The notes under the pieces: model-generated
What the model was told of the DNA's origin: nothing
The model's database searches: none
Seen by the model: the letters and a program-made list of their open reading frames with translations, nothing else
Shown here: piece by piece, positions 6,951 through 26,223 of the stretch
Numbering within the stretch: the stretch's first letter is position 1
Layout: the number at the start of each line of letters is the position of its first letter
Program-made: the position numbers and the translations under genes
NCBI GenBank assembly: GCA_030431555.1
Contig: JAUIIP010000005.1
Span: 1 to 36,637 of the forward strand
Direction: 5' to 3'
Source of the DNA: a bacterium
GTDB lineage: Bacteria; Bdellovibrionota_C; UBA2361; SZUA-149; JAGRAN01
Length of the DNA: 36,637 nt

Positions 6951-7850
6951 TTGTACTACCTTAAACAACAGGTTCACCACTTCCAGGACAATGCCGAGCT
7001 CGAAGCTGCTTTGATTTCGGTAGTGATTCCGGTTTACCCGGCAAAGTCGGCGCAGCTTGAGCTGGTAATCGAACAGGTCAAGCTGCAGGACTACCGGCGG
7101 CTAGAGATTATCGTCGTCAAGAACGGAGCGTTTGAAATCTGCTCAGACGCCGACGGCAAGACGCTTCGAACCTTCGAAATAGAGCGCAATGTCGGCGCGG
7201 CCTACGCGCGAAACTTAGGCGCCAAGCACGCCCGTGGAGAAATTCTATGGTTCGTCGATTCGGATTTGGACTCAATTAAGCCGGACTGTGCGAAGATAGG
7301 AGCACAGACACTCGCGGAAAATCCTGACATTGGAATAGTCGGAGGAATCATCTTTCCGACTGCAGAGGGTAATGTGCTCACAATTGGAAGGCAGCGAGTT
7401 GTCGCGGTAGAAGGCGACGAAACGAAAATAATAGACGACGATTTCTCCAACACGGCCTGCGCGTTCGTGCGCACTCGAGATTTCAAGCGTATCGGCGGCT
7501 TTGCAGATTTTATCGAATATCCCTTCGATGATGTAGATTTAGGATTTAAGTTCAGAGCAGCAGGATTTCGCTGCACCGGAATTGCGGCCTGCTCCGGTGT
7601 GCATCCGCTGCACAGCGGCCGAGCGAGCGTTTTTCATGAGTTCATGAGCTTCCATAACATGCTGGTCCATCTATTCATCAGCTACTCCGCGGCTGGGTTC
7701 GCGAAGCTTTTTGCCAAAAAAGCCCGCCAGGGATTTCGTTTGTCCCCTCCTAGCTTCGAGCTGACGTTAGTCGAACGAATCTCAGCTCTGGGAAGCTTGC
7801 CGGCATGTGCCTCGCTGCCCCTTACCTGGTCCTGCACAGCGCTAAGCTGA
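6951..7850 (+). CDS. Glycosyltransferase family 2
   Basis: ISVVIPVYPAKSAQLELVIEQVKLQDYRRLEIIVVKNGA; NVGAAYARNLGAKHARGEILWFVDSD; TTG start. Confidence 0.85.
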   Translation: MYYLKQQVHHFQDNAELEAALISVVIPVYPAKSAQLELVIEQVKLQDYRRLEIIVVKNGAFEICSDADGKTLRTFEIERNVGAAYARNLGAKHARGEILWFVDSDLDSIKPDCAKIGAQTLAENPDIGIVGGIIFPTAEGNVLTIGRQRVVAVEGDETKIIDDDFSNTACAFVRTRDFKRIGGFADFIEYPFDDVDLGFKFRAAGFRCTGIAACSGVHPLHSGRASVFHEFMSFHNMLVHLFISYSAAGFAKLFAKKARQGFRLSPPSFELTLVERISALGSLPACASLPLTWSCTALS

Positions 7851-7926
7851 TGCAGTTAAGGCGAACTCGACAAGCCCAACTGACCGACTTACAATGAAAT
7901 TCAACGCGAAGGTTTAAGTAAGGGAT

Positions 7927-9129: not shown

Positions 9130-10069
9130 AGGCAGAGATATCCTCTAGCCGCTTGTTTAAGACTCTGCTGCCCTCAGTCGTCGGATGCCATTTTTGGGGA
9201 TTTCCGCCCTGAAATACCACACTGGATGGAACTCCAAAGAAGTCCGCTACATGAACCAGTCCGCTGTCGACACTAAACAGCCGGCTGGCCGTTCTCACAA
9301 GATCAACTGTGCGTGGAAATGGCGCAACTCCGACGAGGTTGCGCAGCTTCACTCCACAGCTGTTCTGAATACGCACTGCGGCCTCGCGATCCTGAGGAGC
9401 TCCAAGCAGATAGACCAAGTCGTCTGCCTCGGATGCCGCGCGCACTAGGGCGCACCAAGTCTCTACCGAAAGGCGTTTATAGGCCTGCTGAAACCCGGCC
9501 AGGGCAACTACCACATGAGAGCTTGCCTGGCCCTCCCTGATTGGTGGAAGCTGAAAGCGGTTGCGGGTAAATCCGCCGAACAAATCGTTTGCCTCTTGGA
9601 TCAAGCGAGTAAAACTGCTCAGCTCATGCTCGTCTCGAGAATAAGCAACGGACAAGTCATAGCAATCGCTTCGGCGGTTAACATCGAACCCCGCAAGCCT
9701 TCCTTCCGACTCGGTCATGCGAGCGCTCAGCAGGGCAGAAAGACCAAAGGTTTGCTCCGTATTAATAACCAGCGGATAGCGGTTCAAGCCGGCCAAGCTT
9801 GGGAGCATTGTTTCTGCAGAATCGTAGCAGAGGCAGTCTACTCCTAAATACTCCAGCCAAATTGAATTGCGCTTCTCCGCCAGCCAGTCGACGTCTTTTG
9901 GGTTGATACCAAGTCCAAGAAGTGCGCGAGTAACTAAAACCATGTCGCCTAGTCCTCCGGGTCGGACGATACAAGGACGAGACTTTGACTGTGCAGGAAG
10001 ACGCAGTCTGCGAAGCAAGTACCTCGGGAAAATTTTAGCCGCACCGTCGAGGGTCTTAAGCCACAGCAC
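9110..10069 (-). CDS. Glycosyltransferase family 9 (heptosyltransferase-like)
   Basis: IVRPGGLGDMVLVTRALLGL N-terminus; C-terminal LFSVDSGLVHVADFFGVPSSVVFQGGNPQKWHP. Confidence 0.85.
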   Translation of the reverse strand: MLWLKTLDGAAKIFPRYLLRRLRLPAQSKSRPCIVRPGGLGDMVLVTRALLGLGINPKDVDWLAEKRNSIWLEYLGVDCLCYDSAETMLPSLAGLNRYPLVINTEQTFGLSALLSARMTESEGRLAGFDVNRRSDCYDLSVAYSRDEHELSSFTRLIQEANDLFGGFTRNRFQLPPIREGQASSHVVVALAGFQQAYKRLSVETWCALVRAASEADDLVYLLGAPQDREAAVRIQNSCGVKLRNLVGVAPFPRTVDLVRTASRLFSVDSGLVHVADFFGVPSSVVFQGGNPQKWHPTTEGSRVLNKRLEDISASTLAPS

Positions 10070-12680
10070 GGCGACGCCTCCAAAATTCGGCGACGACGCA
10101 GAGCAATACGCCTAGCATAGTCAAAACTTTTGCGAATTTGTCGACCGGCTGATCACGGTGGACTACTTCTGTTCGCTCACTCTGCGGAACGAGCAGCATG
10201 AAGCCGTTGACACCCCGGTAAATCGGCACCTCTGCCTGCCACTTAGGATAGTACGAATACTTCAGTAAATGCGGCTTGCCTGGGCAAGAAGTACTTAAAA
10301 TCAAGCGATGAAACCGCTCCTCGACGGAAGCATCGCAGCTCTCAGTAATGCGCTCCGACACGCTCAGTTCACCCGTTGAAGGCAGCATAGAACGCAGCTC
10401 TTCATTTAGGCCGTATACATGGTCGATGAAGTTGCCCCAGTTGCCGCCCTCACCTATCGGCAGCAGAGTGATCGCAGCAAAGGAGTTCCACTCTTGATTA
10501 GGGAGCAAACGCCTAAACTCCAACGGTATCGGTTTGCTGACATCCATCTCACGGCCGTTCGCCAGCGCCCGATAGCCATTTACTCGCATATTAACTTCAT
10601 GCACCCCGGGCGACTTTGCGGCGAGTGGAATAACCACTGCAAAGTTCATCCACTCTTCGGTGTAATACTGTGGATAGGGTTCGTACGATCTACTGGCAAT
10701 GAACAAAGATGGGACTTCCTCCATAGGCTTGCTTATGTCAAAGCCCTCCGGTCCAATCTTCGCTTTTGGGATATTAAAGTAAGTCACAACCTCTCCGCGC
10801 CTAGCCTCCTTCAGCCTCGGCGTCCAACCCCGAGCGGTAAGGTGCCGGCCGCTGTACCACAGCCGTGTGAGGTAATTGACGAAGTCCATTGGATCGACTG
10901 CGGCCTCGCGATGCGCACCGGCTTTCAACACGGCGATCGCCTGATTTCGCAGATCGTCAAAGGCCGGCAAAAACAGAATCAGTTTTTCTACATCGGCGGC
11001 ACTGACAAACATCGGATGTCCGTCGAATACCTCGACCATTGGCGACTTCTCATTGCGCTTATACAGCGCGGTAAAGCGGCCCTGAAACAACTTCTCAAAC
11101 CTTCCGCTCGCTTCAATTGCTCGCTGGTTCTCCTCCCTCGCCGCGATGTGATAGTCCACACCGAGTGCCCGCATCATCTCGGCACCGGCTTCGATATCCT
11201 TCTCGGGCATAATTGAGCCCCTTGGCCAGCCGGCGCAGGTATTGCTCATCAAGCATTGGAGAAAATACGGTATCCCGGGGAGTGTCGCCGAGTTTACGAT
11301 TCCGCCTTCGATAATGTTGTGATCTGTTAGCCAAGGCAGCAGTTCAAATTCACGAACCGTACCGAAAAGCTTGTTGTTTCGGTCGGAGGACTCGAAGGAA
11401 ACTCTGGATTTTGGCTCATTGCGCAGCGTGCTGACCAAGGCTGCGAAATCACCACCTCCCTGCTTCGCCTCCACTCCCGACATATTCCACGTCATCCAGC
11501 CGCGAATATCGCGAAACGCCTCTTCCGAAGGAATTAAGAATCCAATTCCAAGAAACATTAAAATGGTGAGCAGCCGAAAGCCGCGAGCGAAGACTGTTTC
11601 AAACAATGCGATCAGCAGCAAATAACCCGACATGTAAAGACCCGGCCAAAGTCTAATATTGGAAAAGACGATTTCACTAAAAACGCCGCGGGCGCTGATC
11701 AAAAACAACTGAAGCAGCAAAAATACTGAGGCTACGACCAGCAGCGGACTATAAATTTTCTTGAAAAAGAGCGTGCAAGTCAGTAGTGCGCAGAGTCCTG
11801 CTGCAACGACCTCCGTGCGTGTAAGTGAATCGAGAAAGGACCAATTCCAATCTCCGCCAAAGTCTGCTGCCCAACTGCGGTAGTGCATCAGGGGGATCAA
11901 CCACCAGGAGCTAAGTAAAAACCCCGCGACGGCGTTAAGATAGAATGGTGCAAGCTCCTGCGCGCGCTCCCTGCCTTTCCAAACAAGCCAGAGGTCAACG
12001 ATAAAAATAGAGAACCCGAACATTGCCAAAAACAGCGCCACGTAGAAATGCGAAAGCAGTGTCGCGGCAGCGGCGACTGAGGCAGCGAGTGAAAAACGCT
12101 TCTCCATCCGAGCACGAGAAAGCAATCCGAGAGCGATTATGCCTATTACAAACGCCCAACCGTTTGCCACCATCCCAGCTAATGTAGAAAATGCGTTTCC
12201 GCCCCAAACGACAAACCCCTGAGTGTGAAGAAAGCTCACAGCAAGCAGCGAGCCGACGCCTGCAGTCACAAGATGTCCGCCGGCAAAGCGCACTCCTAAG
12301 AACATCGCCGGCGGCAGCAGGAACAACGGGGCAACGGCAAACAATTTGTAGGCGACTTTGGGTTCAATAAGCTGGGCCACCAAGGCACCAATCAGATAAG
12401 GAAGCGGGAAATAGAACTGAAAGAGTTCAAATCCCGCCCAAAGATCGTATGAATAGTGAATTATACTCAGGTCCGCGGACAATGCTCCGCTCAGACTCTT
12501 AATCAAGACCGGATGGGCTGGGTTATCGCCACCCGTAGGAGTCGTCGGTGTGAACAACAGCTCAAGCGGAGTGTTCAGCAGTATGATAAAACTTCCAAGC
12601 AGCGCTAAAGCACTTGCGCCGCAGAGCCGGAGAAGATTGAATCCTGGTATGCGAACAAGCGCTGAAGGCTGATCACTCAT
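10056..12680 (-). CDS. Large polytopic GT-C-like membrane protein with C-terminal periplasmic domain
   Basis: 874 aa, many TM helices; acidic first-loop motif TGGDNPAHPVLIKS; C-terminal segment SYYPKWQAEVPIYRGVNGFMLLVP resembling that of GT-C/AftD-type membrane proteins. Confidence 0.7.
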   Translation of the reverse strand: MSDQPSALVRIPGFNLLRLCGASALALLGSFIILLNTPLELLFTPTTPTGGDNPAHPVLIKSLSGALSADLSIIHYSYDLWAGFELFQFYFPLPYLIGALVAQLIEPKVAYKLFAVAPLFLLPPAMFLGVRFAGGHLVTAGVGSLLAVSFLHTQGFVVWGGNAFSTLAGMVANGWAFVIGIIALGLLSRARMEKRFSLAASVAAAATLLSHFYVALFLAMFGFSIFIVDLWLVWKGRERAQELAPFYLNAVAGFLLSSWWLIPLMHYRSWAADFGGDWNWSFLDSLTRTEVVAAGLCALLTCTLFFKKIYSPLLVVASVFLLLQLFLISARGVFSEIVFSNIRLWPGLYMSGYLLLIALFETVFARGFRLLTILMFLGIGFLIPSEEAFRDIRGWMTWNMSGVEAKQGGGDFAALVSTLRNEPKSRVSFESSDRNNKLFGTVREFELLPWLTDHNIIEGGIVNSATLPGIPYFLQCLMSNTCAGWPRGSIMPEKDIEAGAEMMRALGVDYHIAAREENQRAIEASGRFEKLFQGRFTALYKRNEKSPMVEVFDGHPMFVSAADVEKLILFLPAFDDLRNQAIAVLKAGAHREAAVDPMDFVNYLTRLWYSGRHLTARGWTPRLKEARRGEVVTYFNIPKAKIGPEGFDISKPMEEVPSLFIASRSYEPYPQYYTEEWMNFAVVIPLAAKSPGVHEVNMRVNGYRALANGREMDVSKPIPLEFRRLLPNQEWNSFAAITLLPIGEGGNWGNFIDHVYGLNEELRSMLPSTGELSVSERITESCDASVEERFHRLILSTSCPGKPHLLKYSYYPKWQAEVPIYRGVNGFMLLVPQSERTEVVHRDQPVDKFAKVLTMLGVLLCVVAEFWRRRRAVA

Positions 12681-12685
12681 CTAAG

Positions 12686-13579
12686 TTGCTCGTGCCGGTG
12701 AATTTATCTGACAACAAATTTCTCTCTGTCCTGCAGCTTCTACGGCCGCACCAGTGGGTAAAAAACTTTCTCATCTTTGCCCCGCTGCTGTTCTCCGGCC
12801 AGTGGTCCGAGTCCCTGTTCTATCTCTCGCTTGGAGCGTTTGCAGCATTCTGCTTGATCTCCTCGGCAGCTTACTGCCTCAACGATGCAGCAGATCAGGC
12901 GCGCGACCGAGAACATCCGGAAAAATGCAGGCGGCCGGTAGCCGCGCAGCGTGTATCGACTACCGAAGCTTATTTGCTGACTGCGGTCCTAACAAGCTGT
13001 TCTCTGGTTCTCGCCTGGAAAATCTCCCAGCCACTGGGGCTGACAATCTGCTGTTACGCGGCGGCCCAGCTCGTCTACACTTTTCTGATTAAAAACATAC
13101 CCATACTGGATATTCTACTGCTGTCTAGCCTGTATGTTTTGCGAATTTTGGCCGGAGTAGCTGCAACAGACATCCATGCCTCGACATGGATAATTATCTG
13201 CACCTGGATGATTGCGCTGATGCTCGCTTCCGGGAAGCGCTTTCTTGAAGTCTCTCGCAGCGGCGCTTCGGCCCATCACGCCCGGCCAGTGCTCGGAAAA
13301 TACTCCCACCACTTTCTGCGGCACTTAATGAGCAGTATGGGGGCAGCGACTCTTGTTTGCTATTTGCTGTGGTGCAATGAGACCGTGCAAAGCTCGCGCT
13401 TCAGTTCCGCCGAAGTATTTCCCAGTGGGGCGATAGTTACCTTTTGCCTGCTTCGCTATCAGCTAATGGTCTATCAGAAACAGTTTGACGAGGATCCGGC
13501 AAAGGGGCTGCTCAAAGACATTCAGATACTTGTCGCCGTGCTTCTGTACGTGGCATACATGGCATATGTCATTTACTAG
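12686..13579 (+). CDS. UbiA-superfamily prenyltransferase, decaprenyl-phosphate phosphoribosyltransferase (DPPR synthase)-like
   Basis: LLRPHQWVKNFLIFAPLLFSGQ; NDxxDxxxD motif (NDAADQARDREHP); DILLLSSLYVLRILAGVAA; RYQLMVYQKQFDEDPAKGLLKD. Confidence 0.85.
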   Translation: MLVPVNLSDNKFLSVLQLLRPHQWVKNFLIFAPLLFSGQWSESLFYLSLGAFAAFCLISSAAYCLNDAADQARDREHPEKCRRPVAAQRVSTTEAYLLTAVLTSCSLVLAWKISQPLGLTICCYAAAQLVYTFLIKNIPILDILLLSSLYVLRILAGVAATDIHASTWIIICTWMIALMLASGKRFLEVSRSGASAHHARPVLGKYSHHFLRHLMSSMGAATLVCYLLWCNETVQSSRFSSAEVFPSGAIVTFCLLRYQLMVYQKQFDEDPAKGLLKDIQILVAVLLYVAYMAYVIY

Positions 13580-14423
13580 AAGCAGAATTCTGGGGATCGT
13601 CTACTCCCTATTAGCAGCCGTAATAGTTTTTCCGCACTCCTGTGCTGCGGACTACATCTCCCTCACCGCTTCAACGCACAGTAATATCATCGTTGACACT
13701 AAACAGGTTAATGTACAGTTCTTAATTTCTAACCACGGCGACGAACCCGCCCTGAATGTGGCAATTGAATTTCCTCGGCTGACTCGGCAGTTCACGGTCT
13801 CGAACTCAATCGCACCGGGCGAATCAATTACCCACACTGTCGAAATGACTTTCGATGATTTTAGCATATCGCAGCCGGGCCGTTATGTGCTGCCGTTTCG
13901 ACTAGCATATCAAGATGCCAATCTATTTCCTTTCTCTGCCCCCTACTCGGTTGTTCTCGTCTACAACCACGAACCTCCGCGAATGCTGACTATGGGATTT
14001 ATCGGCATTTCCGGAGCCCTGCGCATAGACTTACGGGACAGCAACCGCTCAGTGCTTGAGATACTGAACACCTCTCCCGATACCGTGCGAATTGAAGACA
14101 TCTCCGGGCACAGCGCAACTGAACTTCAGCTAACTCTAACCCCGCCCGACTTGCCGCTCGAACTCAAGCCTGGGGAAAAAGCTACTGTCCCGGTGCTAAT
14201 GAAGCGCACACGAGGCCAAATCGAAGGCTCAAACTATGGTGGACAGATTCTGGTATCAGGAACCGCAGGCGGGTTTCATTTCGTCGAGTCTTCGAGCTTC
14301 ATGGCCAAGATAGTCGGCGAACCGGTAACTTCGCATCACGCGTCCCGAGTCGCCCTGATTGCACTTGCAGTCATTGTGTTGCTCGGTTGGTTCTTTCAAC
14401 GTCGCTCGGCCAAGGGTTCTTAA
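13566..14423 (+). CDS. Secreted/membrane-anchored protein with NEW3/CARDB-like beta-sandwich domains and C-terminal TM
   Basis: ATG at 13566 gives MSFTRSRILGIVYSLLAAVIVFPHSCAADYISL signal peptide; beta-rich repeats (NVQFLISNHGDEPALNVAIEF); C-terminal TM (VALIALAVIVLLGWFFQRR). Confidence 0.65.
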   Translation: MSFTRSRILGIVYSLLAAVIVFPHSCAADYISLTASTHSNIIVDTKQVNVQFLISNHGDEPALNVAIEFPRLTRQFTVSNSIAPGESITHTVEMTFDDFSISQPGRYVLPFRLAYQDANLFPFSAPYSVVLVYNHEPPRMLTMGFIGISGALRIDLRDSNRSVLEILNTSPDTVRIEDISGHSATELQLTLTPPDLPLELKPGEKATVPVLMKRTRGQIEGSNYGGQILVSGTAGGFHFVESSSFMAKIVGEPVTSHHASRVALIALAVIVLLGWFFQRRSAKGS

Positions 14424-14904: not shown

Positions 14905-16155
14905 TTAGCGCTCCAATATCATCGCGCAAGCCATAGCACCGGCAGCGCAGATTGAAATTAGGCCGCGCTTAGCTCCGCTGCGCTTCATCTGGTTCGCCAG
15001 ACTGGTAACAATTCGCCCCCCGGTGGCGGCAAACGGATGACCCAAGGCAACCGAGCCGCCCATCACATTTACCTTTGAAAGGTCCACCTTTCCCACGGCC
15101 GGTTCTTTCCAGCCCTCTTCCCAGGCTTTGATATTCGCAAGTAACTGAGCGGCGAATGCTTCGTGTATTTCGATATAATCGAAATCGTCAAAGGTCAGAT
15201 TGTTGCGGGCGAGCAGACGCGGAACGGCAACCGCCGGAGCCATCAGCAAACCCTCATTAGGATCAATCGCCGAAAACTCGAAATCACCGACAAAAGCCAG
15301 GGGTTCCTTGCCCTCTTTCGCCGCCCGCGACTCCGACATCAACATCACTGCCGATGCGCCGTCAGTCAACGCACTGGAGTTCCCTGCGGTAAGCGTTCCT
15401 GAGCCGCTCCTATCAAACACCGGCTTTAACTTAGCCAGCTTCTCAATCGATGTGTCACCGCGAACCAAACCGTCGCGGTCAATTCCTTCGAGCGGAGCGA
15501 TCTCTGCGGTCAGCCGCCCATCTTCGGTCGCCGCAAATGCGTTCTTATGACTAGCCAGCGCAATTTCGTCCTGGGCCTCGCGGCTAATTCCAAGCTCCTT
15601 AGCAGTGATCTCCATGTGCTGGCCCATCGTTAAACCTGTGCTCGGCTCAGTCACAGCAGGCGTTGGCGGAAGCAAATCACCCGGTCGAAGCTTAAGCAAG
15701 TGACTCAGCCGCTCTCCCATAGATCGTGCTCTGGATACCTTAAGAAATACGTCAGAGCCGCGTTCGCTGTAGAGCAGTGTCGGCTTCGACATCGATTCAC
15801 TGCCACCTGCAATTGAGCAGTGGCTTTGCCCGAGGTTTATCCGGCGTGTCGAACCGGCGATTGCCACCAAGCCGGAAATGCAATTATTGGAAACGGATTC
15901 CGCATATAGAGTCTTAGGCATTCCAGCGGCAAAGACTATTTCACGTGCCCAGTTCGGCGTTCGGGAATCTAAGAGCACCGTGCTGTAAATGAACTCATCG
16001 ACCGTAGCCGGGTCAACGCCGCTGCGATCAACCAGCGCTTTAAGGGCATGGACTCCGAGCTGCTGAAAACTGTACTCCGTCAGCGCTGTGCCTGCCTTCA
16101 TAAATGGAGTTCGCACTCCCTCAACAATTGCCGCCCTTGAACCTTTGTCAGCCAT
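14905..16155 (-). CDS. Acetyl-CoA C-acyltransferase (thiolase, FadI-like)
   Basis: AAIVEGVRTPFMKAGTAL; SVSNNCISGLVAIAGSTRRI; NVMGGSVALGHPFAATGGRIV; ISICAAGAMACAMILER. Confidence 0.93.
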   Translation of the reverse strand: MADKGSRAAIVEGVRTPFMKAGTALTEYSFQQLGVHALKALVDRSGVDPATVDEFIYSTVLLDSRTPNWAREIVFAAGMPKTLYAESVSNNCISGLVAIAGSTRRINLGQSHCSIAGGSESMSKPTLLYSERGSDVFLKVSRARSMGERLSHLLKLRPGDLLPPTPAVTEPSTGLTMGQHMEITAKELGISREAQDEIALASHKNAFAATEDGRLTAEIAPLEGIDRDGLVRGDTSIEKLAKLKPVFDRSGSGTLTAGNSSALTDGASAVMLMSESRAAKEGKEPLAFVGDFEFSAIDPNEGLLMAPAVAVPRLLARNNLTFDDFDYIEIHEAFAAQLLANIKAWEEGWKEPAVGKVDLSKVNVMGGSVALGHPFAATGGRIVTSLANQMKRSGAKRGLISICAAGAMACAMILER

Positions 16156-16290: not shown

Positions 16291-16818
16291 GTGCGCACGC
16301 TGTGCGCTCGTGGCAGGATAGAAACATCATCTGCTGCTGCAGCCCGAGGTGCGAAACTAAGAGTGGCCTCCGAAAAAACAACTCCCCTGAAGCCCGGAAC
16401 CAGAGTTCGAGTGAATAGTCTCGAGAAGACTGCCGTAGTCGAAGAAGGACCTAATAGAAAAGGCATGTATCTGATTGCGCTGGGAGCAGTGACAATGTGG
16501 GCCCCTGCCTCCGACCTGCAGCCGCTTAAGCCCCCAAAGAAAACCTCCAGGCCGAGCGCACAGCCGACGCCTTCGTCAGGACGCGAGACTACGCTCAGCA
16601 TCGACTTGCATGGAATGAATCGGGAAGAAGCAACTGTCGCCCTGGAAGAATTGCTCGATCAGGCACTGCGCGCTGGAACTGACCGCCTGGAAGTAATCCA
16701 CGGAATCGGCAGCGGCGCAGTTAAAAATATCGTCCATCAGTATCTCGGCGCCTCACGCCACGTCCGCTCATATCGACTCGACGACACTAATCCGGGTACG
16801 ACCTGGGCTTACCTGTAG
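16291..16818 (+). CDS. Stand-alone KOW-like + Smr domain protein (MutS2 C-terminal module-like)
   Basis: KPGTRVRVNSLEKTAVVEEGPNRKGMYLIALGAVTMWAPASDLQPL followed by Smr domain SIDLHGMNREEATVALEELLDQALRAGTDRLEVIHGIGSGAVKNIVHQYLG. GTG at 16363 is an alternative start. Confidence 0.85.
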   Translation: MRTLCARGRIETSSAAAARGAKLRVASEKTTPLKPGTRVRVNSLEKTAVVEEGPNRKGMYLIALGAVTMWAPASDLQPLKPPKKTSRPSAQPTPSSGRETTLSIDLHGMNREEATVALEELLDQALRAGTDRLEVIHGIGSGAVKNIVHQYLGASRHVRSYRLDDTNPGTTWAYL

Positions 16819-16928: not shown

Positions 16929-18263
16929 GTGCGAATGCTTAATCACAATTCCCCAAATAGACGATCGCGCGGGATCACAATCGTCGAGATGGCGATAATT
17001 CTTCCGCTCGCACTTTTGTTGATAATAGGAATTATCGATTTCGGTAGAATCCTGGCGGTTCGGGGCGTGTTAACCGCCGGCGCTTACAACGGCTGCAATA
17101 CAGCATCCAAAGTCGTCGGATTAGAGCTAGATGGTCGTGCCTGCACTGATCTCGTCCCACCTAATCCACCTACTTGTGAGGACTCAACCCAGACTGCCAA
17201 TGCCGGGTTGATTAGCAGCGCACGAGACAAGGTGATTGCTAGAGCTAAGGAATTACCATTGGCGACCTTGCTCAGTGACGGAACGCCGAGCATGGCGGTG
17301 CTCACTGATACCTTTCATCTTCGTCCGGGCGAAAAGGAGTACTTAGACTCGAAGGGGGAGCTGCATCAACACTTTGACTGCAACTGTCGCGACAGAGTCA
17401 GCTCAAGTCCAGGCAATTGCCCAATATTTCCGCCTGCCGCACCGCCGGACCCTCCGGTTCCGTTTAACGGTTATGAACAGCTTAATTTCACCTGTCCGCA
17501 TCTAGTTGGCATGATTGCGGACGTAGACACTCTGATACCGGGTTTGGGTGAATTGCGAATCATGGGTCAAGCGGCCTGCTTTCGAGAAACCACTCTATCG
17601 GGCTCTTACCCGGCGTATACACCTCCGCCGCCAAGTACGACATCTTCAACCAGCACCACTTCGAGCTCGACGACTTCTTCGTCGGTCTCTTCCAGCTCCT
17701 CAAGCAGTTCAACGACATCAACAACCTCCACGACCCAGTCGTCAACCTCAACCACCAGCACGACGCAGTCTTCCACTTCTACAACGTCTTCGACACAATC
17801 TTCTACATCGACGACGTCAAGCACACAGTCGTCCACGTCAACTACGAGCACTACTCAGTCGTCGACTTCAACGACCTCAACTACTCAGTCTTCGACTTCG
17901 ACGACCAGCACTACACAGTCGTCGACATCAACTACTTCAACTACTCAGTCTTCGACTTCGACTACCAGCACGACACAGTCGTCGACATCAACTACTTCAA
18001 CTACTCAATCTTCGACTTCGACTACCAGCACGACCCAATCCTCGACTTCGACAACCTCGACTACCAGTTCAACCAGCAGCACAAGCAGCACCACAAGCTC
18101 CAGTTCGTCGACAACTTCGACGAGTACGGCGTGCTTTCACTATAGTGCTGGAGGAGATGATAATCCGGATTGTAACGGCGCGATGGACAATGACGACTGC
18201 CAGAGACTCTGTGGACTCCCAGTATTCCTTGGCTGCAGTTGCGTGGGCGGCCCGGGGGGTTAG
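16929..18263 (+). CDS. TadE-like pseudopilin with long Ser/Thr(Gln) repeat domain and Cys-rich C-terminus (A1)
   Basis: Prepilin-type motif SRG|ITIVEMAIILPLALLLIIGIIDFGR; Cys-containing globular region; YTPPPPSTTSSTSTT linker; ~11 copies of SSTSTTSTTQ; tail CFHYSAGGDDNPDCNGAMDNDDCQRLCGLPVFLGCSCVGGPGG. Confidence 0.85.
   Translation: MRMLNHNSPNRRSRGITIVEMAIILPLALLLIIGIIDFGRILAVRGVLTAGAYNGCNTASKVVGLELDGRACTDLVPPNPPTCEDSTQTANAGLISSARDKVIARAKELPLATLLSDGTPSMAVLTDTFHLRPGEKEYLDSKGELHQHFDCNCRDRVSSSPGNCPIFPPAAPPDPPVPFNGYEQLNFTCPHLVGMIADVDTLIPGLGELRIMGQAACFRETTLSGSYPAYTPPPPSTTSSTSTTSSSTTSSSVSSSSSSSSTTSTTSTTQSSTSTTSTTQSSTSTTSSTQSSTSTTSSTQSSTSTTSTTQSSTSTTSTTQSSTSTTSTTQSSTSTTSTTQSSTSTTSTTQSSTSTTSTTQSSTSTTSTTQSSTSTTSTTSSTSSTSSTTSSSSSTTSTSTACFHYSAGGDDNPDCNGAMDNDDCQRLCGLPVFLGCSCVGGPGG
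17631..18130 (+). repeat. Low-complexity Ser/Thr-coding repeat region including an 11x ~30-bp tandem array (17736-18065)
   Basis: Gln codon (cag/caa) recurs every 30 nt inside tcgacttcgac/taccagcac type units; translates to SSTSTTSTTQ repeats. Confidence 0.95.
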
Positions 18264-18558
18264 GACGCCGCGCGGCAGCAGGGCCTTAAACACCTGTACA
18301 GATTTGAACAGCTTCAACTAAAGTGAAGCTAATTCGGCGTCGATAGCATCTATAGCAACAGTGAATAAGACAAGAAATACGAACAATTTTGTGCATTATT
18401 CTTATCGGATGTTCAATTTTGTGCTATTCTTGTAAGGAAAGAAGTTGTGCAGGGTGGTCCTTCCCTGCTTCAGGTGCGGTGGATTAATCAACATATCTAG
18501 TTTTTAACCGAGACCTCTCGGGTTAACTCTCGAGGGTACTCTGTCAGGAGGTTTTCTA

Positions 18559-19164
18559 ATGGCCCTCAGCCGCTATCCATTTTGTCGACGACGCAACAGC
18601 GAAGACGGCGTAGCTCTTGTAGAATTTGCAATTATGTCGCCCTTCTTGGTCGCCTTGCTTGTAGGCATCATCGAGTTGGGAATGCTCCTCGATCAGTATC
18701 TGCACGTGGTGAACATCGCCCGTGACTCTGCCAGGCTTGCAGTTCAAATCGTCAACCACGAACAAAATCAGCCTTGCACGGTGACTTACGGCACGCCTTG
18801 CTCGCAGACAAATGCTAGCATTGCACATCAGCGTGCCTGGTATTTGCTCCAATATATGGCGCCTGACTTAGACCTCGGTGGAACGGGCGATCCGCAGCTC
18901 AGCACCACTTCCAACCTGTTCGTTGACGGCAGCGGCACTGGTCAGGACCAGACAATACGATTTAGCGTAAATGGTGAATTCGTAGCCTTAAACGGCGTCA
19001 GATTGCCAGTCAGCGTCCAAGCCACCGGTGGCTACCGCGCTATCGGTGCAGGCGGCAGCGGCAGTGGCGGAAGTGGCGGCGGCGGCTACAGCGTTCCGCG
19101 GGACGATCTCGAGGATCTTTGGTTGGAGATCTTCAGATTGAGCCATCCGTCGATGACCAAGTAG
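18559..19164 (+). CDS. TadE-like pseudopilin with Gly-rich C-terminus (B1)
   Basis: SEDG|VALVEFAIMSPFLVALLVGIIELG prepilin-like helix; Gly-rich GAGGSGSGGSGGGGY tail; paralogue of the ORF at 19516. Confidence 0.85.
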   Translation: MALSRYPFCRRRNSEDGVALVEFAIMSPFLVALLVGIIELGMLLDQYLHVVNIARDSARLAVQIVNHEQNQPCTVTYGTPCSQTNASIAHQRAWYLLQYMAPDLDLGGTGDPQLSTTSNLFVDGSGTGQDQTIRFSVNGEFVALNGVRLPVSVQATGGYRAIGAGGSGSGGSGGGGYSVPRDDLEDLWLEIFRLSHPSMTK

Positions 19165-19515
19165 GCTCTAGGAGAAAGCCCTAGGCGCTGATCCAATTCG
19201 ATCAGGAACGAACTAAATCAAACTGCTTCGACGAGGTGGACACATCCCATAACGCCTTGTAATCACTGCATAAAATTTTTCTTTAAATTTATGCATAAAA
19301 CCCTGAAGCAAAGTGCCCAATTCTGTCGACTATGAGTATGGAGAGGAAGACTCTCCAGTGTGCGACTTAATTACCAGCTCTTTTCTTGGTGTTTTCGGAA
19401 GTTGTTGGCGGTCAAACGACCCAGGTGGGGTGGATGCAAAACCAGGAAGCAGCGGTGTAACGCGAGCGAGAGGAATCGCAGCGGGGCACTTAGACTTCGG
19501 TTGGGTAACTTTAGA

Positions 19516-20184
19516 ATGAATTCAGACAACATACATATTCACGGGCGCAGCTCAGAGCGAGGAACAGCCCTCGTTGAATTTGCGATAATGGCCCCGTTTC
19601 TAGTTTTCTTTTTAACAATGCTGATTCGCATGGGCTTTATCATGGAGCAGTACCTGCACGTGGTGAACATTTCGCGCGATGCAGCGCGCCAAGCAGTCCA
19701 GATCGTGAACCACGAAGCCAACCAATCCTGCGTAGTTACCGAGACTTCTACCGCCGGATGCCCGATTACCAACGGCTTCGTTCCTCACGTAAGAGCTTGG
19801 TATCTGCTCTCTGAATTTGCGCCGGATCTTGATCTGAGCACAGTTAACACTAACTCGCTGCTCACGATGGACGGCAGCGGAACAGGCTCAGATCAGACTG
19901 TTCGTTTCCAAATTAGCGGTGACTTTCTCGGCATCGGCTCGATTCCAGTCCCGATTAGCGTCCAAGCAACCGGTGGATACCGGGTGATTGGCGCAGGCGG
20001 CGGCGGCGGCGGTGGTAAAGGCGGCGGCGGCTTGGGTTACGGTCGTGACGGTATCAATGAAATCAAAGACGATTGGGGCGACGGTGTCTATATGGACGAC
20101 ATGTACGTTCTCAAAGGAGCCGACCAGCAGGCCCAAGGCGCGAGCAAACAGGTAGTTGAAACAGTGGTGGTGATGACCCCTTGA
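19516..20184 (+). CDS. TadE-like pseudopilin with Gly-rich segment and acidic tail (B2)
   Basis: ATG at 19516: MNSDNIHIHGRSSERG|TALVEFAIMAPFLVFFLTML; shares EQYLHVVNIxRDxARxAVQIVNHE, RAWYLL..APDLDL, DGSGTGxDQT and SVQATGGYR with B1. Confidence 0.85.
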   Translation: MNSDNIHIHGRSSERGTALVEFAIMAPFLVFFLTMLIRMGFIMEQYLHVVNISRDAARQAVQIVNHEANQSCVVTETSTAGCPITNGFVPHVRAWYLLSEFAPDLDLSTVNTNSLLTMDGSGTGSDQTVRFQISGDFLGIGSIPVPISVQATGGYRVIGAGGGGGGGKGGGGLGYGRDGINEIKDDWGDGVYMDDMYVLKGADQQAQGASKQVVETVVVMTP

Positions 20185-20234
20185 TAGGCGCTGCTGCGCA
20201 TGAATTTTTAATCTGCCTTTAGTGGATAATCTTG

Positions 20235-20264
20235 AAAGGGTGCCTGATTAGCGGCACCCTTTTT
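20235..20264 (+). terminator. Rho-independent terminator after the B2 pseudopilin
   Basis: aaagggtgcc tgattagc ggcaccctttttt hairpin with T-tract. Confidence 0.9.
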
Positions 20265-20465
20265 GTTATAATTTGGAGTAAGATAGGTGGTTTGACGAAT
20301 GGTTTTCGGAAATCGCAAATGACCAGCTAGGTTTTCTGCAGACAAAAGTTGCCAATCGCCAAATCAGCATGAAATAGTTATTGTGATGCCGGGACTTTCC
20401 ACTAAATTCCCGTGTCTTCGCGACGTGTGGAGGATCGCGACTTAACATAGCGAAAACCGCTTCTT

Positions 20466-22196
20466 GTGATGGTGAACGAAGACCAGCCAGTCAATAAACG
20501 CGCCTGCGCGAGCAGGCTTAGGCTGGGTTCATCCTGCGAATCGGGTATTACGATGGTCGAGATGTCGATCGTCCTGATTGTCCTCCTGTTAATCCTCCTC
20601 GGAATTATCGACTTCGGCCGCGTTCTGGCGGTGCGAGGTATCCTGACGACAGGTGCTTATAACGGCTGCAACGTCGCAGCGAAGGTTCCCGGCTTGGAGC
20701 TCGACGACAGGGCCTGCGGCGCGCAAGTACCGCCAAACCCGCCGGGCTGTGATGACGAAATTCAGACAGGAAACGGAACTGGGACAGGAAACGTAGCCAA
20801 GCTGCAGGCAGCGCGCGACGCCGTGCTTGCCCGAGCCAAACAGCTTCCGCTCGCGACCCTGCTGACTGACGGCACAGACCCTGCGAACCCCGAAGAGAGC
20901 ATGGCAGTGCTTACAGATGTAATGCACCTTCGCCCAGGTGACCCGGCGATGAACGACTCGCAGGGAGACGAGTTTCGCCACTTCGACTGTGCCTGCGAGG
21001 ATCGGGTGATGACGAATCCTCCTAACTGCCCTGGGCTGGGAGACCCGCCGCATGGCTTTAACGGATTTGAGAACCTTAACTTTGATTGCCCGCATATCGT
21101 TGCGATGCGCGCGGACGTTCAGACACTTATCCCCGGAATCGGCCCGCTGCGGGTAGAAGGTCGAGCAGCCTGCTTCCGAGAAGTAACGCTGACAGGCTCC
21201 TTCCCGGCCTACACTCCACCGCCGCCGACAACGACTTCGTCGACTAGCACCACCAGCACTTCGTCTTCCTCGCAGTCCAGCTCGTCTACGACTACGACTA
21301 GCTCGACATCGACCACGACAAGCACGACTTCGAGCACCACCAGCAGCACGTCATCAACGACGAGCACAACCAGCTCGACCAGCACGACTACTTCAACGAC
21401 AAGCTCCACGACCTCAACTACCTCGACTACGAGCACGACGAGCACGACAAGCACAACTACCAGCACAACAAGCACCAGCACCTCGACTACGAGCACGACA
21501 AGCACAACTACGTCGACGACCAGTTCTACGAGTTCTACCAGCTCGACCACATCGAGCTCGACGTCGACATCATCGACTACTTCAACTAGTCAGTCGTCCA
21601 GTTCGAGCACGTCGAGCACCTCAAGCACTCAGTCTTCGACTTCGAGCACATCGACTACTCAGTCATCCAGCTCCAGCACGTCGACTACCCAGTCTTCGAC
21701 TTCAAGCACATCGAGTACTCAGTCCTCGACTTCGAGCACATCGACTACTCAATCTTCGACTTCAAGTACATCAAGCACGCAGTCATCGACTTCGAGCACC
21801 TCCAGCTCACAATCATCAACGTCGAGCACCTCGTCCTCGCAGTCATCGTCTTCGTCAACTTCATCGAGTCAGTCGTCCAGCTCTTCAACATCGACTTCGC
21901 AGTCGTCCAGCTCGACCACCTCGAGCAGTATGTCGTCGAGTTCGAGCACTAGCACTACTAGCTCCACAACTTCTTCGACGACGACTTCGAGTTCTACAAC
22001 CAGTTCGTCGAGCACAACTTCATCGAGTGTTTCTAGTTCCAGCTCCACTACTTCCACCAGTGTCTCGTCGACATCATCCACCTCTTGTTCGGATCCATGC
22101 GGAGCTACCGGCCCGCTTGATTGCGGAACCGGAGGCTGTCTGCTGCCAAACTGGAACCCCTTAAGCTGTAGATGTGAAGCCGGCGGAGGCGGATAA
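20466..22196 (+). CDS. TadE-like pseudopilin with very long Ser/Thr-rich domain and Cys-rich C-terminus (A2)
   Basis: SG|ITMVEMSIVLIVLLLILLGIIDFGR; globular region paralogous to A1 (LELDDRACGAQVPPNPPGCDDEIQTGNG); ~285 aa of S/T with periodic Gln; tail CSDPCGATGPLDCGTGGCLLPNWNPLSCRCEAGGGG. Confidence 0.85.
   Translation: MMVNEDQPVNKRACASRLRLGSSCESGITMVEMSIVLIVLLLILLGIIDFGRVLAVRGILTTGAYNGCNVAAKVPGLELDDRACGAQVPPNPPGCDDEIQTGNGTGTGNVAKLQAARDAVLARAKQLPLATLLTDGTDPANPEESMAVLTDVMHLRPGDPAMNDSQGDEFRHFDCACEDRVMTNPPNCPGLGDPPHGFNGFENLNFDCPHIVAMRADVQTLIPGIGPLRVEGRAACFREVTLTGSFPAYTPPPPTTTSSTSTTSTSSSSQSSSSTTTTSSTSTTTSTTSSTTSSTSSTTSTTSSTSTTTSTTSSTTSTTSTTSTTSTTSTTTSTTSTSTSTTSTTSTTTSTTSSTSSTSSTTSSSTSTSSTTSTSQSSSSSTSSTSSTQSSTSSTSTTQSSSSSTSTTQSSTSSTSSTQSSTSSTSTTQSSTSSTSSTQSSTSSTSSSQSSTSSTSSSQSSSSSTSSSQSSSSSTSTSQSSSSTTSSSMSSSSSTSTTSSTTSSTTTSSSTTSSSSTTSSSVSSSSSTTSTSVSSTSSTSCSDPCGATGPLDCGTGGCLLPNWNPLSCRCEAGGGG
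21228..22085 (+). repeat. Low-complexity Ser/Thr-coding region, partly organised as 30-bp units
   Basis: Translates to STT/SST runs, then a ~10-aa Gln-spaced array (QSSTSSTSTT, QSSTSSTSST, QSSSSSTSSS) from ~21591. Confidence 0.95.
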
Positions 22197-22214
22197 ATTC
22201 ATGGAGGAACAATT

Positions 22215-24392
22215 TTGAATACTGAATCCGCACGGGAATATCTCTCCGAGCAGTTGAAGAGACAAAGGCGTAAGTTAGCAGGCGCTGACGGAGCTGTTAT
22301 CGTCATTGTGGCACTGCTGCTGATTATTGTTATTTCCTTCGGCGCCTTAGCAATCGACGGCCTTACCGCCGCCAATGCGCAGCGCCAGCTTACAGTCGTA
22401 TCTGAAATGGGCTCTTTGGCGGCCGCTGAGCAGTTTTTCGGTTCTGGCGCTGCGACTACTCAGGGACAGCTCACAGAAGCACTTGCACGAGCTAATCAGG
22501 TCTCTGCCTTAAATGCACTTGTGGGCTACGCCGAGGGTGAAGCAGGCACCGAAGATCAGCCTTTTGGTTATTTGGGCTTAGCATTCGGCTTCGACCCGGG
22601 AAATGACTGCTCGGCCTGGCCGGCTGGGAACGACTGCACCAATGGAAGTCTTATTCCAGGAGAGTATTTCCTGGAAGACCCCGACGAAGCGGGCCCCGAA
22701 GATCCCTGCGTCGGCGATTACCCCTGTTTTCTCCCAGCCCCGGATGAGACCGGCACAATCAACGCCTTTCAGGTCGTAACCAATTTCGTGACGCCGATGC
22801 GGACTTGGTTCGGAGGCCTAACCGGTTTCGACAATCTCTCGATGACCGGAAGCGCTGTAGCGGCGCAGGTCCCGCGCCATGCGATGTTCTTAGTAGACGA
22901 ATCACCATCAATCGCCGGCGACACGCACCGTTCCTCAAACCTGCCATGCACAGGCGACGGAAATGATCCTAATCCGCCGCTCGACAGTGCGTGTTACCTG
23001 CATTTTGCTGGATTCCCTGGTGGAGCCGCTGCTCACACCTATGACTGGACCGGGCCGCCGGCCGATCCCGATGTGGATTTGCGAGTGCGTGCCCACCGCT
23101 CGTTTTATGCTTATGAAGACATCTACACCGGCGGTTCAAGCTGTGTAGAGTATTACGCGGGCGACCCGAACACGAATCCGGTTACGGTAGAGTGCTCCTG
23201 GGAAGCACTTGTGGCATTCGGCAATCGTCCCGGCGCCTGCCCGCCCGGCGGCCCGGCAGACCCGACCTGCCCCTGGCAAACCACGAGCTTTGAGGATTTT
23301 GAGCAGACTAAATGGTTTCCGGACGACTACAGTTATAACTTCTCAGTCGACGATCAATGCGACCGCGGAAGCGGCAGTCCGGCAGGAACACGCAATTACC
23401 GAGCACCCGATCCGCTTGGACCACTACCTGATCCCCAGCCGTTGTTTTCTATTCTAAGAGGTGTAGTAGCGGCCTTAAACGAGTTTGCTAATAACGCCGT
23501 CGCTGGAGACTTGATCGGTGTCAAAGCTTTTGACCAGTGCGTACCGGACGATCCCGTCAGTGGACGCTTTTTTGACCTTGGCCCGGTTTCAAACATTCCA
23601 ACAACAGCAGTTGACCCTGACCATGCGTCTCGCGCCTATCTCGACAATATGTTCTTTCCGATGGGACCTTACAACACGGACGGGGTGCTGGCGCTCGAGC
23701 AAGCGGTGTCTGATCTTTCGAATGCGCCGAACGCCCTGCTCGCTTCAAGCTTCGTCGTAATATTTACCGATTGGCTGTTTAACTGCGAGCACAGCGGCGG
23801 AACGGCTAATTGTCAAAACCTGTATCCGGAACATGCTCTGGCAATGGGTGAAGCTGCGACACTAGCAGACCTTTTTGCCAGCCAGAGAGTTGCAGCGCAT
23901 GTGATCTTCGCGGGTGAAGCGGTGTTCCCTCACACGCTTCTCTACCGTTCACTCGACCAGAACGACTGCATGGACGACCTTGAGGCCAGGTATCTGGGAA
24001 TTGATTTTGTCAGGCCCGGATGTTCCGATCCGGTTGCCTGCAACAACAACTTCAACCAGATGCTCAATGGTATTGGGACTTATTCCGGCCACATCTTAAA
24101 CGCTTACGACTTTGCCAGAAAAACGGGCGGTGAATTCGTGACACTGCGAGACCCCTGTGTCCAAGGTTCTGACGTAACGCCGGCGTTAACCGCTGCTTGC
24201 CAGGCCGCTCCGGCTTGGTCATGGACCGTGCCGCCGGTGCCGACTGAAGTCTATCAGCCGCCTTATACTCAAGGCAGCAATCCAGGCGAGAATGAGGTTA
24301 TTTGCGAGCCGACCGGAGTGAGCAAAGACGTTCAAGTTCAAAACGCAATTGCGCGCATTATGGGTGTGCACCCATTTAAGCTGATGCAGTAG
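22215..24392 (+). CDS. TadG-like protein with von Willebrand factor A-like region
   Basis: TTG start with ggagg RBS; N-terminal TM (GADGAVIVIVALLLIIVISFGALAIDGLTAANAQRQL) typical of TadG/Flp-associated proteins; DxSxS MIDAS-like motif HAMFLVDESPSIAGD. Confidence 0.8.
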   Translation: MNTESAREYLSEQLKRQRRKLAGADGAVIVIVALLLIIVISFGALAIDGLTAANAQRQLTVVSEMGSLAAAEQFFGSGAATTQGQLTEALARANQVSALNALVGYAEGEAGTEDQPFGYLGLAFGFDPGNDCSAWPAGNDCTNGSLIPGEYFLEDPDEAGPEDPCVGDYPCFLPAPDETGTINAFQVVTNFVTPMRTWFGGLTGFDNLSMTGSAVAAQVPRHAMFLVDESPSIAGDTHRSSNLPCTGDGNDPNPPLDSACYLHFAGFPGGAAAHTYDWTGPPADPDVDLRVRAHRSFYAYEDIYTGGSSCVEYYAGDPNTNPVTVECSWEALVAFGNRPGACPPGGPADPTCPWQTTSFEDFEQTKWFPDDYSYNFSVDDQCDRGSGSPAGTRNYRAPDPLGPLPDPQPLFSILRGVVAALNEFANNAVAGDLIGVKAFDQCVPDDPVSGRFFDLGPVSNIPTTAVDPDHASRAYLDNMFFPMGPYNTDGVLALEQAVSDLSNAPNALLASSFVVIFTDWLFNCEHSGGTANCQNLYPEHALAMGEAATLADLFASQRVAAHVIFAGEAVFPHTLLYRSLDQNDCMDDLEARYLGIDFVRPGCSDPVACNNNFNQMLNGIGTYSGHILNAYDFARKTGGEFVTLRDPCVQGSDVTPALTAACQAAPAWSWTVPPVPTEVYQPPYTQGSNPGENEVICEPTGVSKDVQVQNAIARIMGVHPFKLMQ

Positions 24393-24405: not shown

Positions 24406-24900
24406 CTACTCAGTAGAAATTCGCTCTAGCTCAGACTTGAGCATAATCGTGTTGTAGGGCTTTGGTATGAACCCATCAACGCTTTCGAGCGGAAAGCTGC
24501 CCGAAACGTGCGTCTCGGGATATCCACTTGAGAGCAAAATCTTAACTGACGAATTAATCCCGCGAATATGCGAAACGACTCGCGACGAGTGAGTTCCCGG
24601 AATATCATAATCCAGAATAATGCAGTCGATATCATCTGCTGCACGTTCGTACTCGTCGATAGCGTCCGCACCATCCGCGGCCAGAGCGACTGTAAAGCCA
24701 AAGGACGATACTATGTCAGCCAAGACCTCCCGCACGAATTCATCGTCTTCGACGATTAGTACAGTAGTTCCTGATGACATAGTGCTGTTCGAACGCCGCT
24801 TCGCATCCGCAACGCGGTGCGAACCGTCGATTGGGACATCCAATCTGTCCATTTTGCACTTCCCCCTTAGCGTTCGCAGGAAGAAAATCAATCTCCCCAC
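24406..24900 (-). CDS. Single-domain response regulator (CheY-like receiver)
   Basis: TTVLIVEDDEFVREVLADIVSSFGF, CIILDYDIPG, ILLSSGYPE, FIPKPYN; probable start at the internal MSSGTTVL. Confidence 0.9.
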   Translation of the reverse strand: MGRLIFFLRTLRGKCKMDRLDVPIDGSHRVADAKRRSNSTMSSGTTVLIVEDDEFVREVLADIVSSFGFTVALAADGADAIDEYERAADDIDCIILDYDIPGTHSSRVVSHIRGINSSVKILLSSGYPETHVSGSFPLESVDGFIPKPYNTIMLKSELERISTE

Positions 24901-25227: not shown

Positions 25228-26223
25228 TCACTTCGACTTGCCCTCGATTACTGATTCAAGGATGCGAAACTGGGGATCGAATTCACCTAAGGCATCAAGA
25301 CCAAGATTTTCCACTGCAAGTTTCACAAGCTCCTGCGACGTAAGCTCCTGTGAAGATTGGTAGTATCTCCCCGCATCCAGCAGCGCCTGGCGCGGAATCA
25401 GTCCGATTAGTTCGCTGCCCGCGACATTCACCCCAAGTAGCCGAGCGCACTCACGGCATGCCTCATAGGCTTGAGCGAGGCCGGTAACTCCCAGCTGCGT
25501 TAAGTTCATCGAGACCTGGCAGCAGCCATACTGCTCCATCCACCAGCCAATCGCTTTCACACCAGCAAGGTGTGGACCCGGCCCCCCACCGCGCTGGCGC
25601 ACCATTGCTGCGATCTTTCGCGCTGTCGGCAGTTCGGCTCCGCTGAGGTTGACGTTAAATGCAGCCAGAAACTCACGTGCGCCGGTCACCAAAGCTCCGA
25701 AGCGCGGATTGAATGCTCTCGGTCCGAAGTCAGGTATCCACTGCTCATCGAGCAGTTTGTGTTCCAAGCCTTCGTAGCCGCCCCGCCGAACATCAGCCAA
25801 ATTCTTTCTGTGCGGCGCCTGGGAAGACGCCTCATACAAATATACGGGGACCTTGAGTTCACTTCCAACCCGACTTCCCAGCTCGCGAGACAACTGCACA
25901 CACTCTTCGATTGTCGAGGTTCCCAGGGGCACGAATGGCAGCACGTCGACGGCGCCAATCCTAGGATGTTCGCCGCGATGAGTTTGCATGTCGATGTGGC
26001 GCAAGGCGGATTCGACCAGTCGAAATGAGCCCTCAAGCACCGCATCAGGCTCACCTACAAAGGTAATCACAGTTCTGTTCGCATCGGAGCCCGGATCCAC
26101 GTGAAGAATCATCACGTTGGTTTTCTCAAGGTCGCCAAGAATCGCCGCGACGGTATCGCGATTTACTCCGGCACTAATGTTAGGTATGCACTCGACGAGC
26201 TTGCTCTGTGCCACGACCTGCAA
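25228..26223 (-). CDS. ftcD: Glutamate formimidoyltransferase
   Basis: KLVECIPNISAGVNRDTVAAIL; HVDPGSDANRTVITFVGEP; MQTHRGEHPRIGAVDVLPFVPLG; QVSMNLTQLGVTGLAQAYEACRE. Confidence 0.95.
   Translation of the reverse strand: MQVVAQSKLVECIPNISAGVNRDTVAAILGDLEKTNVMILHVDPGSDANRTVITFVGEPDAVLEGSFRLVESALRHIDMQTHRGEHPRIGAVDVLPFVPLGTSTIEECVQLSRELGSRVGSELKVPVYLYEASSQAPHRKNLADVRRGGYEGLEHKLLDEQWIPDFGPRAFNPRFGALVTGAREFLAAFNVNLSGAELPTARKIAAMVRQRGGGPGPHLAGVKAIGWWMEQYGCCQVSMNLTQLGVTGLAQAYEACRECARLLGVNVAGSELIGLIPRQALLDAGRYYQSSQELTSQELVKLAVENLGLDALGEFDPQFRILESVIEGKSK

Follow-up and report, generated by a model that had tools for sequence, protein, structure and literature searches.

A five-gene TadE/TadG-type cluster with Ser/Thr-stalked minor pilins, probably an exchangeable Tad pilus tip

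A cluster of five genes in the window (the whole stretch of 36,637 nucleotides analysed here) probably specifies a tip complex that can be exchanged on Tad (type IVc) pili, a reading to which we give a probability of roughly three in four. TadE/F/G-type tip cassettes are already known, although modular tips were recognised only recently, in a predatory bacterium. What is new here is that the variation resides in the TadE-type subunit (hereafter A), and that an A/B pair is duplicated while TadG is single.

Gene content of the cluster

All five open reading frames of the order proposed by the sequence-only reading, namely A1-B1-B2-A2 followed by a TadG/vWA protein, were found (Table 1). This order had been described as mirrored, which holds for the succession of the genes but not for their orientation, as all five lie on the plus strand. 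The B2 frame opens at 19360, the ATG at 19516 being the likelier start. The hairpin located after B2 weakly suggests that A1-B1-B2 and A2-TadG are separate transcripts; the suggestion is weak because, in a promoter and terminator scan of the region, such sites were no more frequent than in shuffled sequence.

Table 1. Features of the cluster and of its flanks, in window coordinates
Feature	Position	Strand	Details
Thiolase, left flank	14905..16155	-	conserved in same-genus and order-level relatives
Smr-domain protein, left flank	16291..16818	+	conserved
A1, TadE-type minor pilin with Ser/Thr stalk and Cys-rich C-terminal module	16929..18263	+	444 aa; PF07811 E 2.3e-10
Ser/Thr stalk of A1	17634..18128	+	165 aa, ~11 units of QSSTSTTSTT
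Cys-rich C-terminal module of A1	18129..18260	+	6 Cys, from sequence
B1, TadE-type minor pilin with Gly-rich tail	18559..19164	+	201 aa; PF07811 E 1.6e-11
B2, paralogue of B1	19516..20184	+	222 aa from ATG 19516; PF07811 E 2.8e-7
Terminator-like hairpin after B2	20234..20263	+	11-pair stem; hairpin scan
A2, TadE-type minor pilin with the longest Ser/Thr stalk	20466..22196	+	576 aa; PF07811 E 4.7e-10
Ser/Thr stalk of A2	21228..22082	+	285 aa, 95% Ser/Thr
Cys-rich C-terminal module of A2	22083..22193	+	6 Cys, from sequence
TadG-like protein: putative N-terminal pilin module, followed by split vWA with large insertion	22215..24392	+	725 aa; MIDAS residues, model, Foldseek
Response-regulator receiver protein, right flank	24406..24900	-	from sequence; conserved in same genus
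Glutamate formiminotransferase-like protein, right flank	25228..26223	-	conserved in same-genus and order-level relatives; name from sequence alone

The four small proteins had been taken for TadE-type pseudopilins, a claim made to hang on a match to TadE, and all four match the Pfam TadE family (PF07811) above its curated cut-off (31.0-44.5 bits vs 22.9; E from 1.6e-11 to 2.8e-7). The prepilin-type G-x4-E motif reported for them was also recovered, as a scan of the 65 window ORFs of at least 90 aa for this motif followed by a hydrophobic helix returned exactly A1, B1, B2, and A2. Both pairs are paralogous, as proposed: the N-terminal parts of A1 and A2 are 61% identical, and B1 and B2 are 57% identical. 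A1 has an orthologue in a same-genus genome (73% identical), and B1 likewise in the same genus (85%). The predicted model of A2 is pilin-like, with a long helix (residues 18-73) and a sheet (mean pLDDT 78.6). Neither fold nor sequence search found solved-structure relatives of A, and NCBIfam models match none of the five proteins.

The identity of the TadG-like vWA partner stands, and rests on its MIDAS residues (D228, S230, S232, T488, and D519) together with its predicted model, in which a long helix and a sheet, forming a putative pilin module, precede a vWA domain interrupted by a large insertion. D228 and S230 are invariant across 14 relatives and, judging from these residues, the metal site of the putative vWA head is intact. 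Foldseek searches with the model returned mostly vWA domains as top matches, including the Streptococcus sanguinis minor pilin PilB, with probabilities of up to 0.99 but E values of only 0.01-0.1. Pfam VWA does not match the window protein directly, and VWA_2 matches four of the 14 relatives, the window protein not being among them. Pfam Tad (PF13400) scores 12.5 bits on the window protein, below the 22.3-bit cut-off, and is found at E<=1 in 12 of the 14 relatives (best 5.6e-5).

Lineage distribution and Tad machinery

TadG-like relatives occur in 32 of the 46 lineage genomes and A-type relatives in 21. The TadG-like gene adjoins 26 of the 32 A-type genes examined, and many relatives show the order B-A-TadG. 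For example, the order-level relative G012 carries thiolase-Smr-B-A-TadG-formiminotransferase, at the same chromosomal place as the window's cluster, and both ends of the window's locus are present in the same-genus genome G001. As the G012 locus holds B-A-TadG at the same place, A-B-B-A arose by duplication of the A/B pair at the level of the genus. In the tree, one clade (support 100/99) unites A1 and A2 with the G001 copy; an ancestral B-A-TadG cassette gave rise, within this lineage, to the duplicates A1-B1 and A2-B2. A simple tandem duplication of B-A is rejected, because it would yield B-A-B-A and not the observed A-B-B-A; given the B-A-TadG order of the order-level locus, one or more additional duplications or losses are needed. 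The intergenic stretches of the cluster share no repeat beyond coding homology.

The window contains neither a major pilin nor an engine. The genome (354 contigs, 88% complete) carries its engine genes on contigs other than the window's: TadA-like ATPases lie on contigs C3, C181, and C185, with a weaker one on C182, and there are TadB/C-like neighbours. CpaB matches TIGR03177 above cut-off, a Flp pilin, also above cut-off, adjoins CpaB-TadA on C3, and a single prepilin peptidase with its GGGD motif is split across the ends of contigs C276 and C147. The sequence-only reading, which staked itself on such genes being present, was thus right to place the assembly machinery elsewhere. Its other option, an orphan module, is ruled out by the engine, pilin, and peptidase genes of the same genome, and B-A-TadG cassettes recur in the lineage. 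In better-assembled relatives the cassettes are located far from engines: G007 has two on a 295-kb contig without TadA matches, and G009 one on a 94-kb contig, also without TadA matches. No RcpA-like secretin was clearly identified in the fragmented, 88% complete genome. Its two secretins both lie beside type IVa pilus/T2SS-like genes, so that the outer-membrane route may have been lost in assembly gaps.

Known tip complexes and proposed mechanism

The closest description is that of the KilL/KilM/KilN tips of Myxococcus xanthus, reported in 2025, for which genetic evidence indicates that one pilus can bear alternative tips encoded by TadEFG-type cassettes at remote loci (PMC12075869). As in the window's set, three TadE/F/G-type minor pilins are encoded together, with several paralogous cassettes per genome, separately from the engine, and the C-terminal domains are disulfide-rich and variable (PMC12075869). 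This likeness is one of description, and the two differ in that the window has an A/B pair duplicated around one TadG. In addition, the variable head is reported mainly on KilN in Myxococcus (PMC12075869), whereas the window has a vWA/MIDAS head on the large subunit, and stalk and Cys-rich module on the TadE-type A. The tip1-4 families are restricted to Myxococcota, and the KilN4 head is without PDB homologue (PMC12075869); it is thus not a vWA domain, and no Kil-type role in predation can be read across to the window's cluster.

In the modelled Tad pilus tip of Caulobacter crescentus (CpaJ/CpaK/CpaL), CpaL has a pilin module and, after it, a vWA domain that carries MIDAS and is interrupted by a large insertion, the order of parts predicted for the window's TadG-like protein; in contrast to A1 and A2, no stalks are described on CpaJ and CpaK in the accessible part of that study, which also deals with a single CpaJ/K/L set (PMC12607857). 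The window's set further shares the TadE helix family and a TadG-type large partner with classical TadE/TadF/TadG, whose genes lie within the tad locus, whereas the window's cassette stands alone and has long C-terminal extensions on A. Finally, in S. sanguinis the minor pilins PilA, PilB, and PilC form a heterotrimeric tip that includes a vWA subunit, much as the putative heterotrimer of the window would, but they belong to a type IVa pilus of a Gram-positive bacterium. No sequence relationship was found, and no Ser/Thr stalk is known on these three.

A and B are TadE/TadF-type minor pilins. We infer that their leaders would be cut by the prepilin peptidase encoded elsewhere, and that their helices would join the putative pilin module of TadG in one bundle, giving a heterotrimer. 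Once exported, this bundle would prime and cap, at its tip, a Flp pilus assembled by one of the Tad engines of the genome. The parts facing outwards would be the vWA head and, borne on long Ser/Thr stalks, the Cys-rich modules of A1 and A2; these exposed parts probably serve to adhere to cells or surfaces or to recognise them. The duplicated A/B pairs would provide two stalk lengths per TadG, used either together or in turn, neither option being favoured.

Stalk variation and alternative explanations

Among the four pseudopilins, Ser/Thr stalks are found on A1 and A2 only (residues 236-400, 93% Ser/Thr, and residues 255-539, respectively). Comparisons of their 10-aa units gave a pS of 0.70 and a pN of 0.08 for A1, and of 0.71 and 0.19 for A2. 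Synonymous sites are thus saturated while residues have seldom changed, which indicates that the Ser/Thr composition is under selection. The opinion that so long a Ser/Thr domain is not standard on a TadE-type pseudopilin agrees with the literature found, as the papers listed by our search include none on a Ser/Thr-rich TadE or mucin-like pseudopilin, but does not hold within the lineage, where 11 of the 32 A-type proteins have such a stalk. Others have Pro-rich stalks, EGF-like Cys repeats (up to 114 Cys), or none, and a Cys-rich C-terminal module lies beyond the stalk in 25 of the 29 extended A proteins. The A subunit is modular, being composed of a pilin domain, a variable stalk, and usually a Cys-rich C-terminal module.

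We tentatively go one step further, at somewhat less than even odds, and propose that swappable Tad tips are lineage-wide and that the TadE-type subunit acts as their display arm, with one pilin base, a freely replaced stalk, and a Cys-rich end, the duplicated arms of this genus giving two reaches for one vWA head. If so, Tad pilus tip swapping would not be confined to myxobacterial predators, an uncultured lineage would have a general means to vary what its pili touch, and tip variation would sit on another subunit than in the systems described to date. The natural variants, in which one conserved base bears different stalks, would also offer a direct way to ask which part of a tip binds and which is a spacer.

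Alternatively, the stalks may be generic low-complexity linkers without special function, and the cluster a TadEFG minor-pilin operon of the ordinary kind in which genes were duplicated, which we consider unlikely, though less so than the explanations below. Stalk kind differs among relatives, and Ser/Thr or poly-Ser stretches are also seen in further proteins of the genome that are predicted to be exported (FnIII-like, malectin-like, and type IV pseudopilin), but a mere linker does not fit a Ser/Thr composition held despite codon saturation, nor a Cys-rich module so generally kept past the stalk. This alternative overlaps with the tip reading, as it keeps the tip complex and denies the display arm alone. 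The same stretches on unrelated predicted surface proteins rule out a Ser/Thr domain unique to A1 and A2, and "mucin-like" thus names one type of spacer.

It is improbable that the proteins form a membrane-anchored surface complex outside any pilus, in which the helices would be anchors and the stalks would let a vWA/Cys-rich receptor reach across the envelope, for instance for sensing: TadE/TadG-type helices occur on many proteins without proven pilus role and the adjoining response regulator is conserved in the same genus, but this regulator is missing from the G012 locus, the G-x4-E processing motif is conserved in all four pseudopilins, and three pilin-type genes are adjacent. Equally improbable is a short pseudopilus, or an adhesive fibre on the surface, that stands by itself and has A1 and A2 as mucin-like coat proteins instead of tip subunits, close to the extended fibre originally proposed: two A/B pairs per TadG are unlike a 1:1:1 tip and selection has kept the composition of the stalks, but major pilin and engine are absent from the window, the ancestral unit is B-A-TadG, Pro-rich or Cys-repeat sequence can take the place of the stalks, and the set fits the TadEFG/KilLMN/CpaJKL complexes, minor pilins proposed at tips (PMC12075869, PMC12607857), with B-A-TadG cassettes recurring.

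O-glycosylation of the Ser/Thr stalks is putative. Candidate GT-C and O-OTase-type genes are present in the genome, both families being common and not specific. The glycosyltransferase genes upstream of the cluster are kept in the same genus but were not seen beside the order-level cassette, so that no link between them and stalk glycosylation is claimed. Among named genomes, a profile search with A1 and A2 returned one relative, in the MAG "Bdellovibrionales bacterium HKST-UBA19".

Composition of the five-gene set

The sequence-only reading had placed two pairs of pseudopilin paralogues (A1/A2 and B1/B2) and a TadG-like gene here, and all five genes are present as it stated, every one on the forward strand. 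A Pfam search gave a TadE match above cut-off for each of the four pseudopilins, which are also the only ones of the 65 window ORFs of at least 90 aa to carry a G-x4-E motif ahead of a hydrophobic helix. Identity is 61% between A1 and A2, and 57% between B1 and B2.

Coordinates of features in the window and in extracted loci (L; genome:contig in brackets; G000 is the window's own genome)
Feature	Location	Strand
A1	16929-18263	+
B1	18559-19164	+
B2	19516 (likely start)-20184	+
A2	20466-22196	+
TadG-like	22215-24392	+
Antisense ORF	21209-21550	-
Glycosyltransferase genes	5294-14423	
Wzy_C-type protein	L047:12879-14426 (G000:C30)	
EGF-like stalk	L091:2792-5212 (G014:C16)	
EGF-like stalk	L188:3559-6501 (G009:C54)	
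Double stalk	L088:3312-4790 (G007:C60)	
Exported protein	L135:3531-4616 (G000:C259)	
Exported protein	L133:2983-5025 (G000:C76)	
Exported protein	L132:4160-4852 (G000:C62)	
Type IV pseudopilin	L134:3473-4129 (G000:C142)	

For the TadG-like protein, Pfam returns only a Tad match, below threshold; this match is found at E<=1 in 12 of 14 relatives, and VWA_2 in four. When aligned, these relatives have a pilin-type helix at the N-terminus, a number of conserved Cys and a DxSxS motif in which D228 and S230 are invariant, with T488 and D519 further along. The model (mean pLDDT 59.9, core 70-90) predicts a long helix and a sheet, then a vWA domain interrupted by a low-confidence insertion (about 235-409), and its Foldseek matches (E 0.01-0.1) are mostly vWA domains, including the S. 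sanguinis minor pilin PilB. The same order of parts is published for CpaL, the Caulobacter TadG-type protein (PMC12607857).

A-type proteins follow a single layout: base, replaceable stalk, Cys-rich end. The modelled base is pilin-like (long helix 18-73 and small sheet, mean pLDDT 78.6), with no match among solved structures. Stalks of 32 A-type proteins are Ser/Thr-rich (11), Cys-repeat (7, with 16 to 114 Cys), Pro-rich (4) or other (7), the last three proteins having no extension; at least four Cys lie within the last 45 residues in 25 of the 29 extended proteins. In two A-type pseudopilins, long EGF-like repeats with about 100 to 114 Cys take the place of the stalk, and another carries two consecutive units of Ser-rich stalk plus Cys module.

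Ser/Thr stalks

The Ser/Thr domain spans 165 aa in A1 (93% S/T) and 285 aa in A2 (95% S/T). Comparison of the repeat units shows saturation at synonymous sites in both (pS about 0.7) but little residue change (pN 0.08 in A1, 0.19 in A2), so the Ser/Thr make-up is maintained by selection and does not reflect fresh DNA expansion. An antisense ORF encoding almost only Val/Leu/Glu/Asp is the repeat read in reverse, and is thus no evidence of a gene.

The stalk material is not pilus-specific, since this genome encodes further predicted exported proteins with poly-Ser or Ser/Thr stretches; the special feature is the placement of this material on a TadE-type subunit. Three of these exported proteins are listed above, and the organism seems to use such linkers habitually. 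A pilin of another class, a type IV pseudopilin with a GFTLIEI motif, ends in a poly-Ser tract, a tail of the same kind.

Upstream of the thiolase gene, the window carries a group of glycosyltransferase genes: a sugar transferase, GT2, GT9, a membrane protein of 874 aa with a match to PTPS_related, and a UbiA prenyltransferase. Most of them are retained in the same-genus genome. Elsewhere in the window's own genome, a Wzy_C / O-oligosaccharyltransferase-type protein is encoded some 5 kb away from a further TadE cassette.

Origin of the A-B-B-A order and location of the Tad machinery

Of 46 lineage genomes, 32 have TadG-like relatives and 21 have A-type ones, most commonly as a B-A-TadG unit, frequently several per genome. 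In a genome of the same order (G012), this unit sits between Smr/thiolase and formiminotransferase genes, identical to the window flanks. The same-genus genome (G001) has thiolase-Smr-A1-B1 on one contig and TadG-response regulator-formiminotransferase on another, each ending at a contig break. A1, A2 and the G001 copy form a single clade (100/99), as do B1, B2 and the G001 B copy (100/99). Since the sister of A1 is the G001 copy, the duplication predates the split of the two species, and these clades, together with the older B-A-TadG locus, indicate that A-B-B-A is a genus-level elaboration of that locus.

The window's genome (3.53-Mb draft, 354 contigs, 88% complete) contains 16 TadE matches above cut-off, spread over 10 contigs. 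TadA-like ATPases are located on C3, C181, C185 and, as a weaker match, C182, near CpaB-, TadZ-, TadB- and TadC-like genes; CpaB on C181 is supported by an NCBIfam match, and C3 carries a Flp pilin above cut-off. The only prepilin peptidase found is broken across the end of C276 and the start of C147 (L042, L041), its pieces holding CxxC pairs and a GGGD motif. None of the TadA-like ATPases, CpaB, Flp pilin or prepilin peptidase lies on the window contig. Both secretins detected in this 88%-complete genome stand beside genes of pilus or secretion types other than Tad, so neither is clearly an RcpA. Cassette-bearing contigs of 295 kb (G007) and 94 kb (G009) also lack TadA, so the separation of cassettes from the engine is genuine.

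A putative pilus tip

The A/B/TadG set probably belongs to the TadEFG-type tips, a kind already known. The closest tested case is Myxococcus, which has four partially redundant kilLMN cassettes, any one of which suffices for Kil pilus formation while each alters prey recognition; its authors propose that TadEFG sets in other bacteria are tips too (PMC12075869). By parallel, the helices of A, B and the TadG-like protein would bundle together and prime a Flp pilus, with their heads displayed at the pilus end. Candidate binding parts are the vWA head and the stalk-borne Cys modules. A literature search, with subscription journals largely outside its scope, found no description of Ser/Thr-rich TadE proteins. 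Unlike in published tips, the TadE-type subunit here bears a putative display arm with interchangeable stalk types, and the A/B pair is doubled beside a single TadG; the head is vWA, not Kil-type. A fully glycosylated mucin-like chain extends about 0.25 nm per residue. If the stalks were glycosylated to that degree, their reach might be estimated at about 70 nm for A2 and about 40 nm for A1.
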